Shown here: in pieces, positions 29,500 to 31,488 of the stretch
Layout: every line of letters begins with the position of its first letter
How positions within the stretch are numbered: position 1 is the stretch's first letter
Made by a program: the position numbers and the translations under genes
Assembly (NCBI GenBank): GCA_028686735.1
Contig: JAQUBO010000016.1
Coordinates: 1-38,004, forward strand
DNA: 38,004 nt
Reading direction: 5' to 3'
DNA from: Bacteroidales bacterium
GTDB taxonomy: Bacteria; Bacteroidota; Bacteroidia; Bacteroidales; ML635J-15
The notes under the pieces: generated by a model
The model's database searches: none
Seen by the model: the letters and a program-made list of their open reading frames with translations, nothing else
Told to the model about the DNA's origin: nothing

Positions 29500-31488
29500 A
29501 TGAAAATTAGTGAAAAACAACCCTTAGTCTTTACTATAGCAGATAGGTGTAAAACCTGTTATACATGCATCAGAGAATGTCCTGCAAAAGCTATCAGTAT
29601 GCAAAACGGACAAGCAAATGTTATTACCGAAAGATGTATTGGGTGTGGTAATTGTGTAAAAGTATGTACCCGTAAAGCTAAGAGTTTTTACAATGAAGAA
29701 CAACAAGTTTTACATCTTCTTAAAACAAACAATAATTCCATAGCCTGTGTTGCTCCAGCCTTTCCGGCTGAGTTCAAAGAATTTAAAGACCATAAAATTG
29801 TTGTTGGGATGCTAAAGAAACTTGGATTTGACAAAGTTGTTGAAGTCTCTTTTGGTGCAGATTTAGTAGCTATGAAATATGAAGAACTTATCTTATCTGA
29901 CGATCAAAAAAAGTACATATCAAGCGATTGTCCAGCAATTGTTTCGTATATCACAAAATACTACCCACAGCTAACAAAGTTTTTAGCCCCTATCGTGTCT
30001 CCTCTTATGGCCATTGTAAGAGTTGTTAAAGAGCTATACGGAGAAGAACGAAAAACTGTATTTATTGGTCCTTGCATCGCAAAAAAAACAGAATCTGACG
30101 ATCCCGATTACGTACTAACATTCAAAGAAATTCGTAATATATTTGACACAGAAAATATTAAAGCCGAAGACTGCGAGCCTGCTGAGTTTGACCCACCTCT
30201 TGGCGGAAGAGGGGCTGTATTTCCAATAAGCAGAGGACTAATAAATACTATAAAAATCGAAGAAAACCTTATTCAAGGAAATATTATTGTTGCCGAAGGA
30301 CGAGAAAACTTTAAAGAGGCTATTAATGAGTTTGACAATGGATATATTGATGACCATAATTTGGAGTTACTTTGTTGCGAAGGCTGTATCATGGGACCTG
30401 GAATGTTCTCAGAAGGGAAACGATATCAAAATAGAGCGTACATAACTAGATATGTAAAAACAAAATTAAAAAATCTCAATATTCAAGACTGGGAAAACCA
30501 CTTTAATAGATTTCAAAACATTAATCTTAACCGAGAGTTCTCGCAAGACGATAGTAGAGTTAAAGCTCCCAGCGAAGAAGAAATTGAAGCATTATATCAT
30601 AAAATGGGAAAACATGACAAGCAAGATAGATTAGATTGTCATGCTTGCGGTTATGAATCGTGTAGAGAACATGCAATTGCGGTGCTGCGGGGACTTGCCG
30701 AAGTTGATATGTGCTTACCTTATACCTTAGATAAATTAAAAAATATGGTAAATGAGCTTAACACAAAAAACACTAAGCTCGAAACTGTGCAACAAGCTCT
30801 CAAACAAAGTGAGAAATTAGCACATCTAGGACAGTTAGCAGCTGGCATAGCACACGAAATAAACAATCCTCTAGGAGTTGTAATAATGTACTCAAATATT
30901 ATGCTCGATGAGATAAATCCTAGTGATGAAGCCTACGAAGACTTAAAATTAATAACAGAACAGGCATTACGCTGCAAAAAAATTGTTAGTGGCTTACTTA
31001 ATTTTGCTAGAAAAAATAAAGTAAAGTTCACATCAGTTAATATTGCAGAGTTTATTAATAATTGCTTAAAAGCAGTTATTATACCAGCTAATATTGAAGT
31101 TGAACAAAAATGTTATTTAAGTAACTTTAGCACATCAATTGATGAAGAACAAATGACACAAGCAATTACAAATATTATAAAAAATGCAATAGAAGCTATG
31201 CCCAATGGTGGCAAACTTAGTATTGAACTCTGTAACGACAAAGACAATGTGGAAATAAAGTTCCAAGATACTGGTACTGGTATTAAAGATGATGACAAAG
31301 ACAAACTATTTACACCATTTTTTACAACAAAAGAATTTGGCAAAGGCACAGGACTTGGACTTCCAACAACTTATGGAATAATAAAAATGCATAAAGGAAA
31401 AATTCATGTAAAATCAAACAGCAATCCACAAAAAGGAGAAACTGGGACAATATTTACAATAATTTTACCACAACTAAACGAAAATTAA
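29500..31488 (+). CDS. [FeFe]-hydrogenase-domain sensor histidine kinase (2x[4Fe-4S] - H-domain - 4Fe-4S - HisKA/HATPase)
   Basis: CKTCYTCIRECP, CIGCGNCVKVC; SSDCPAIV, GPCIAKKTE, LLCCEGCIMGPG; CHACGYESCREHAIAVLRGLAEVDMC; HLGQLAAGIAHEINNPL H-box; GTGLGLPTTYGIIK. Confidence 0.92.
   Translation: MKISEKQPLVFTIADRCKTCYTCIRECPAKAISMQNGQANVITERCIGCGNCVKVCTRKAKSFYNEEQQVLHLLKTNNNSIACVAPAFPAEFKEFKDHKIVVGMLKKLGFDKVVEVSFGADLVAMKYEELILSDDQKKYISSDCPAIVSYITKYYPQLTKFLAPIVSPLMAIVRVVKELYGEERKTVFIGPCIAKKTESDDPDYVLTFKEIRNIFDTENIKAEDCEPAEFDPPLGGRGAVFPISRGLINTIKIEENLIQGNIIVAEGRENFKEAINEFDNGYIDDHNLELLCCEGCIMGPGMFSEGKRYQNRAYITRYVKTKLKNLNIQDWENHFNRFQNINLNREFSQDDSRVKAPSEEEIEALYHKMGKHDKQDRLDCHACGYESCREHAIAVLRGLAEVDMCLPYTLDKLKNMVNELNTKNTKLETVQQALKQSEKLAHLGQLAAGIAHEINNPLGVVIMYSNIMLDEINPSDEAYEDLKLITEQALRCKKIVSGLLNFARKNKVKFTSVNIAEFINNCLKAVIIPANIEVEQKCYLSNFSTSIDEEQMTQAITNIIKNAIEAMPNGGKLSIELCNDKDNVEIKFQDTGTGIKDDDKDKLFTPFFTTKEFGKGTGLGLPTTYGIIKMHKGKIHVKSNSNPQKGETGTIFTIILPQLNEN

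Follow-up and report, generated by a model that had tools for sequence, protein, structure and literature searches.

Putatively sensory [FeFe]-hydrogenases tied to histidine kinases are already on record. The HydDB classification includes a group named 'C1 histidine kinase-linked (putative)' (PMC5037454), and PMC11406978 reports sub-type V BfuABC operons from Hydrogenedentota, Calditrichota and Bacteroidota such as Perlabentimonas gracilis, where BfuT, like the protein described below, joins an H-domain to a histidine kinase beside bfuA and where Bacteroidota loci carry a second bfuT gene, so the arrangement is known.

The locus studied here lies in a 38,004-nucleotide stretch of a Bacteroidales genome (contig JAQUBO010000016.1 of assembly GCA_028686735.1), referred to as the window. 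The product of 29500-31488 is an [FeFe]-hydrogenase H-domain joined to a histidine kinase in the same polypeptide (the fusion). An earlier note on this DNA had correctly recognized that a sensor descended from a hydrogenase is joined to a histidine kinase but had overlooked that the class was known (PMC5037454, PMC11406978).

Architecture of the fusion and its operon

The fusion is encoded on the + strand as 662 aa in one unbroken reading frame, and Pfam placed its domains in the order 2x[4Fe-4S], H-domain, C-terminal [4Fe-4S], HisKA and HATPase. The order given in the earlier note, from hydrogenase to kinase, was borne out by ORF reading and Pfam, and its motifs, with the Lys and Glu kept (K195, E198) and C299 and M353 replaced by Asp and Gly (D143, G190), were found as stated. 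The features of the coding sequence are as follows.

29500..31488, + strand: whole fusion CDS, sensory [FeFe]-hydrogenase/histidine kinase (ORF, Pfam, homologues, AlphaFold model)
29548..29667, + strand: N-terminal 2x[4Fe-4S], Cys 17, 20, 23, 27 and 46, 49, 52, 56 (Fer4, residues 13-57)
29737..30399, + strand: H-domain, residues 80-300 (Fe_hyd_lg_C PF02906, E 4.5e-49)
30637..30714, + strand: C-terminal [4Fe-4S] motif C380-x2-C383-x4-C388-x16-C405 (sequence; FeS PF04060, residues 378-407)
30736..30819, + strand: coiled-coil signalling helix leading from the FeS domain to HisKA with no intervening domain (no Pfam match; modelled as a helix, with low confidence over residues 423-451)
30826..31014, + strand: HisKA PF00512, residues 443-505 (E 2e-13; H-box AHEINNP)
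31141..31473, + strand: HATPase_c PF02518, residues 548-658 (E 1.4e-22; N, G1, F and G2 boxes conserved)

The motifs SSDCPAIV, GPCIAKKTE, ELLCCEGC, CHACGYESC and AHEINNP start at residues 141, 190, 289, 380 and 451, respectively. The H-domain retains cluster ligand positions C144, C192, C293 and C296 together with K195, E198, A85-P86 and S167-P168, and the equivalents of C299, M353, K358, E361 and M497 are D143, G190, K195, E198 and Leu (L291). Its third motif is CxxC (C293, C296), one residue less than the CxxxC of group A, a form also found in most HydS2 proteins (see below) of the same loci, and the canonical proton path is missing (E279 is replaced by Tyr and E282 by Leu or Ile). All eight N-terminal cluster Cys are at least 98% conserved, and the Cx2Cx4Cx16C spacing of the C-terminal motif is that reported for the C-terminal cluster of groups C and D (PMC8163306). 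No PAS domain was detected by Pfam after this cluster, HisKA coming next. The orthodox kinase boxes are all present and conserved (H452, N562, D590-G592-G594, F607, G616-G620), with the phospho-accepting His452 (30853-30855) invariant. The AlphaFold model has a mean pLDDT of 83.6 and drops below 50 only over residues 1-5 and along the stretch of coiled coil that leads to the H-box (423-451). It matches solved [FeFe]-hydrogenases with E ~1e-21, among them CbA5H, HydABC and CpI, the last also as its C299D variant (6glz), and it matches ZraS, a kinase, with E 4e-18.

A frameshift or assembly error, which the earlier note had raised as a test of the fusion, was ruled out by recurrence: the same fusion was read in 127 Bacteroidales sequences, 126 of them from other genomes, and in 79 sequences from loci of many phyla. 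A contaminant contig was also ruled out, as eight other congeners carry the fusion at 71-92% identity and the RimO encoded on the same contig is most similar to that of congeners, so the contig belongs to the window's genus. The fusion was not found in four congeners sampled and is present in 9 of the 26 genomes of the genus. Across the order, some match was obtained in 240 of 395 genomes, and the sequences of 118 fusions from these genomes were examined, with the window additional. When GTDB species genomes were scanned with a pattern, at least 599 matches from many phyla were obtained, which included P. gracilis M08_MB and Hydrogenedentota CSSed162cmA_463; fusion loci were found in Bacteroidota, Hydrogenedentota, Planctomycetota, Ignavibacteria, Myxococcota, Acidobacteria, Lentisphaerae and other groups.

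The neighboring genes of the window that bear on the function of the fusion are listed below.

25498..25944, + strand: HydC/BfuC, NuoE-like, thioredoxin-like [2Fe-2S] (PF01257, E 3.3e-37; conserved operon)
25946..27856, + strand: HydB/BfuB, NuoF-like FMN subunit with C-terminal 2x[4Fe-4S] (PF01512, PF10589, Fer4)
27861..29495, + strand: HydA/BfuA-like catalytic subunit with degenerate H-cluster pocket (closest to T. kivui HydA and T. maritima HydABC; motifs)
31491..31883, + strand: single-domain response regulator (RR), REC only (PF00072; syntenic with the fusion in most loci)
31876..32994, + strand: REC-HisKA-HATPase hybrid kinase (PF00072, PF00512, PF02518; syntenic)
32998..33633, + strand: Rex, NADH/NAD+-sensing repressor (NF003995 above cut-off; syntenic)
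35857..36108, + strand: thioredoxin-like [2Fe-2S] protein, second sensor arm (PF01257)
36110..37975, + strand: HydS2, second group C sensory hydrogenase, H-domain and C-terminal FeS (PF02906, PF04060)

Genes between 25498 and 33633 are tightly packed, overlapping or separated by a few bases, and the order hydC-hydB-hydA-fusion-RR-REC/HK is retained across phyla; rex lies downstream of this cassette in Bacteroidales and often upstream of hydC in other phyla. On the 3' side of rex in the window, ribF and a UDP-glucose dehydrogenase-like gene precede the thioredoxin-like ferredoxin and HydS2. The gene after HydS2 in two relatives reads, by sequence and not by profile, as a SpoIIE/PP2C-like phosphatase, which is the C3-type arrangement, so that two sensory hydrogenases with differing outputs flank a single bifurcating hydrogenase. 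No DNA-binding regulator was found as an output in the conserved cassette or, in other phyla, among the genes 3' of it, which are HydE and HydG, unrelated genes or REC-only proteins.

Cluster Cys of HydS2 are lost in several relatives, one of which reads NDP/PLI/YKE-FL at the three motifs and three of which have the first Cys of motif 3 replaced; HydS2 may be turning into a cluster-free scaffold there. Elsewhere in the window, 9478-14142 (- strand) holds xanthine dehydrogenase/CO dehydrogenase-like genes (a 765-aa molybdopterin subunit, a 486-aa FeS-FAD fusion and an XdhC-like protein of 253 aa), and 16785-17309 encodes a protein whose C-terminal domain resembles a type IX secretion sorting tail.

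Conservation of the sensor pocket and decay of HydA

Among the 127 Bacteroidales fusions, the four Cys and the equivalents of P301, P354 and K358 are 100% conserved, with E361 kept in 125/127, S323 in 126/127, P324 in 127/127 and A230-P231 in all 126 aligned sequences. The C299 position is Asp in 119/127, M353 is Gly in 125/127 and M497 is Leu in 127/127. The 79 cross-phylum fusions likewise show no variation at the Cys, Pro, Gly, K358 or E361 positions, but have D, T, S, A, P or N in place of C299; Asp is therefore the Bacteroidales version. A site holding a [4Fe-4S] cluster only would have no evident need for the Lys or for the AP and SP motifs.

The substitutions themselves have precedents. 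CpI C299D retains 30-80% of its activity, its Asp being H-bonded to the [2Fe] amine, and Asp is the C299 substitution that leaves CpI active (PMC6226526). Sensory enzymes in which an H-cluster is bound as a rule have other residues at C299, M353 and M497 (PMC10055695, PMC8163306), and the C299 and M353 changes, being usual in such enzymes (PMC10055695), are thus no argument against one here. The M497L change in CpI impairs [2Fe] insertion (PMC10055695), which, like the shorter third motif and the missing proton path, counts against an H-cluster in the fusion, although Leu is the natural residue at this position in TamHydS.

The catalytic subunit beside the sensor has fared otherwise. The motifs of the window HydA (27861-29495) read TDCPAT, SPCIAHKYE and EVRSCKYGC, with K358 changed to His, M497 to Arg, M353 to Ser and C299 to Asp and with W303 lost, so that the group A3 test for an intact [2Fe] pocket gave a negative result. 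Judged by these motifs, the protein is probably a hydrogenase no more, and because the partner HydA lacks the [2Fe] pocket in the window's genus, H2 production by the operon is doubtful there. Of the 115 Bacteroidales loci, 32 have lost the K358 equivalent of HydA, and each of the 9 from the window's genus is among them. In this set the A230 (mostly lost), S232, F417 and G418 equivalents decay too; the adjacent fusion retains K358 in all 32. Loss in 32/115 HydA versus 0/127 fusions gives a Fisher p of 3e-12, a value in which independence is overstated as the sequences are related. On a FastTree phylogeny of HydA, in which long branches meet, K358 loss maps to approximately 11 changes, at least 8 of them forced by starred branches.

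Maturases and the candidate signal

HydF was detected in 110 of the 118 order-level genomes with the fusion versus approximately 128 of the 276 without it. Of 206 loci, many of them too short to show such genes, 37 have hydG and/or hydE next to the cassette, and the HydE and HydG proteins tested there scored above the NCBIfam cut-off. Matches labelled HydF in these loci were left out, as the query behind them was an aspartate ammonia-lyase. Genome G398 encodes a full-length HydG, and its only PF02906 proteins are the fusion, HydS2 and a degenerate HydA, no canonical hydrogenase having been found in it; for a genome that is 90% complete, this is suggestive of a sensor being what requires the H-cluster. 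A counter-observation comes from one Bacteroidales family, f23, where the fusion occurs in three sampled genomes but no HydG turned up in any of 12 genomes, nor HydF in any of the five tested by full scoring. Canonical-looking [FeFe]-hydrogenases are present in f23 as well, so the failure to find HydG is no proof that the H-cluster is lacking, and the family is counted neither for nor against one. A search of genome G044 also found no HydG.

Two further observations concern these genes. The window's assembly holds additional HydG fragments on three other contigs, which fits its 7.4% contamination estimate. In f23 genome G313, L106:13236-14573 encodes an extra 445-aa hydrogenase-like protein (SSYCPAVV / TPCAAKIA / MKACQEGC, with a C-terminal FeS motif), which is preceded by a small HATPase-like gene within a cluster of two canonical HydABC operons and resembles group D sensors.

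The best-supported reading, and one we consider reasonably probable, is that the fusion is a sensor with an H-cluster whose signal is H2 or the redox state of that cluster. The sensor [2Fe] pocket is intact and strictly constrained and its gene is linked with maturase genes, which argues for such a cluster in it. What the sequences themselves establish is the order of the domains, the intact state of the pocket and of the kinase boxes, and the operon with its conservation; from these we infer cofactor content, ligand, gating direction, phosphotransfer partners and target. Gating by H2, although putative, is favored, and the earlier note was right to grade its choice of signal as inference. The fusion would act as a cytoplasmic, putatively sensory group C [FeFe]-hydrogenase with its own kinase part as output, its H-domain carrying an H-cluster with little or no catalytic role. 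H2 binding or oxidation, or a redox state that H2/H+ and ferredoxin set in the H-cluster and in both N-terminal [4Fe-4S] clusters, would shift the conformation of the H-domain and the C-terminal [4Fe-4S] domain; as the latter runs straight into the kinase coiled coil, we propose that this change sets His452 autophosphorylation. In TamHydS, H2 does not reduce the C-terminal cluster (PMC13104023), which makes a conformational route likelier than electron transfer. The response regulator encoded at 31491, which has a single domain, may then receive the phosphoryl group, as may, instead or in addition, the REC domain of the hybrid kinase (31876), and the HydCBA electron-bifurcating module may be tuned jointly by this pathway, by Rex (NADH/NAD+) and by the second, phosphatase-linked sensor. 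A literature search returned no experiment on the kinase-fused subgroup.

It is possible, but rather unlikely, that the fusion is a redox sensor alone, with a [4Fe-4S] cluster at the old H-site, no [2Fe] and a kinase that tracks the redox state of an FeS chain charged by ferredoxin or HydCBA. In its favor, the sensor is unchanged in the 32 loci above where the partner HydA has lost its [2Fe] pocket, the conserved neighbors Rex, HydB and HydC deal with NADH and ferredoxin, and family f23 keeps the fusion while HydG was not found; the last point is weakened by the canonical [FeFe]-hydrogenases of that family. Against it, K358 and the AP and SP motifs, which serve only [2Fe], are invariant in the sensor and decay together in HydA. 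For the window's lineage in particular we regard it as unlikely that a former hydrogenase operon is now H2-free, HydCBA being a ferredoxin/NADH oxidoreductase with no H-cluster and the fused kinase gauging ferredoxin potential, not H2.

Two other readings were weighed. The H-cluster of sensory relatives can bind CO and O2 damages [FeFe]-hydrogenase clusters generally, so the physiological signal might be CO bound to the cluster or the breakdown of the cluster by O2; we consider this very unlikely, as the conserved neighborhood is one of H2, NADH and ferredoxin metabolism and as TmHydS and TamHydS are unusually CO-tolerant (PMC8163306, PMC11803613), the opposite of what a CO sensor requires. 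The fusion might instead dock on or belong to HydCBA and report electron flow or occupancy, its clusters being mainly structural. It adjoins hydA in nearly all hydA-bearing loci, and its counterpart is named subunit T of BfuABC in PMC11406978; we nevertheless hold this reading to be very improbable, because the fusion and hybrid kinase also occur without hydCBA in some stretches (L235, L244 and L260, where contig ends limit the reading) and because a docking role has no need for invariant pocket residues.

Comparison with described sensory hydrogenases

The regulatory [NiFe]-hydrogenase HoxBC/HoxJ is an analogous case of a hydrogenase that serves as the H2 sensor for a histidine kinase, but it differs from the fusion in its unrelated metal site and fold, its separate polypeptides and its PAS-containing kinase. 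TmHydS (group C, Thermotoga maritima) shares with the fusion the altered C299, M353 (Gly) and M497, the N- and C-terminal FeS clusters and an operon with another hydrogenase; unlike the fusion it has a PAS domain, lacks a kinase, and carries Ala at the C299 position and Ser at that of M497 (PMC10055695). TamHydS (group D, Thermoanaerobacter mathranii) shares the Cx2Cx4Cx16C cluster, Leu at M497 and the lack of a PAS domain and differs in having no fused kinase and Ser at M353 (PMC8163306, PMC13104023). The HydDB C1 group is, like the fusion, one of putatively sensory hydrogenases tied to a histidine kinase (PMC5037454), but its best-matched entry has no HATPase domain (PMC11406978), whereas the fusion has the kinase in one polypeptide.

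By its features the fusion is a group C (putatively sensory) [FeFe]-hydrogenase, the BfuT of sub-type V as described in PMC11406978: it has PF02906 with the four Cys, two N-terminal [4Fe-4S] clusters, the Cx2Cx4Cx16C motif and replacements at C299, M353 and M497, and in the window and in relatives including P. gracilis the H-domain with kinase lies directly beside bfuA in a bfuCBA cluster. The PAS feature of group C (M2f, as in TmHydS) is absent; PMC11406978 nevertheless includes proteins with a kinase in group C, and so does not treat a PAS domain as obligatory, and puts sub-type V BfuT in group C3 by HydDB despite its kinase. An invariant sensor pocket, Asp at C299 and loss of the [2Fe] pocket in partner BfuA are not reported in the parts of that paper examined, and the literature searched gave no account of an invariant sensor pocket versus repeated decay of the partner pocket or of the Bacteroidales Asp signature. 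The output of TmHydS and TamHydS is a separate protein, whereas in the fusion a single soluble polypeptide holds both sensor and kinase and has its likely phosphotransfer partners adjoining, which makes the question of H2 sensing directly approachable by kinase activity; the decayed catalytic subunit beside an intact sensor offers a natural means of telling the sensing of H2 apart from that of redox state.
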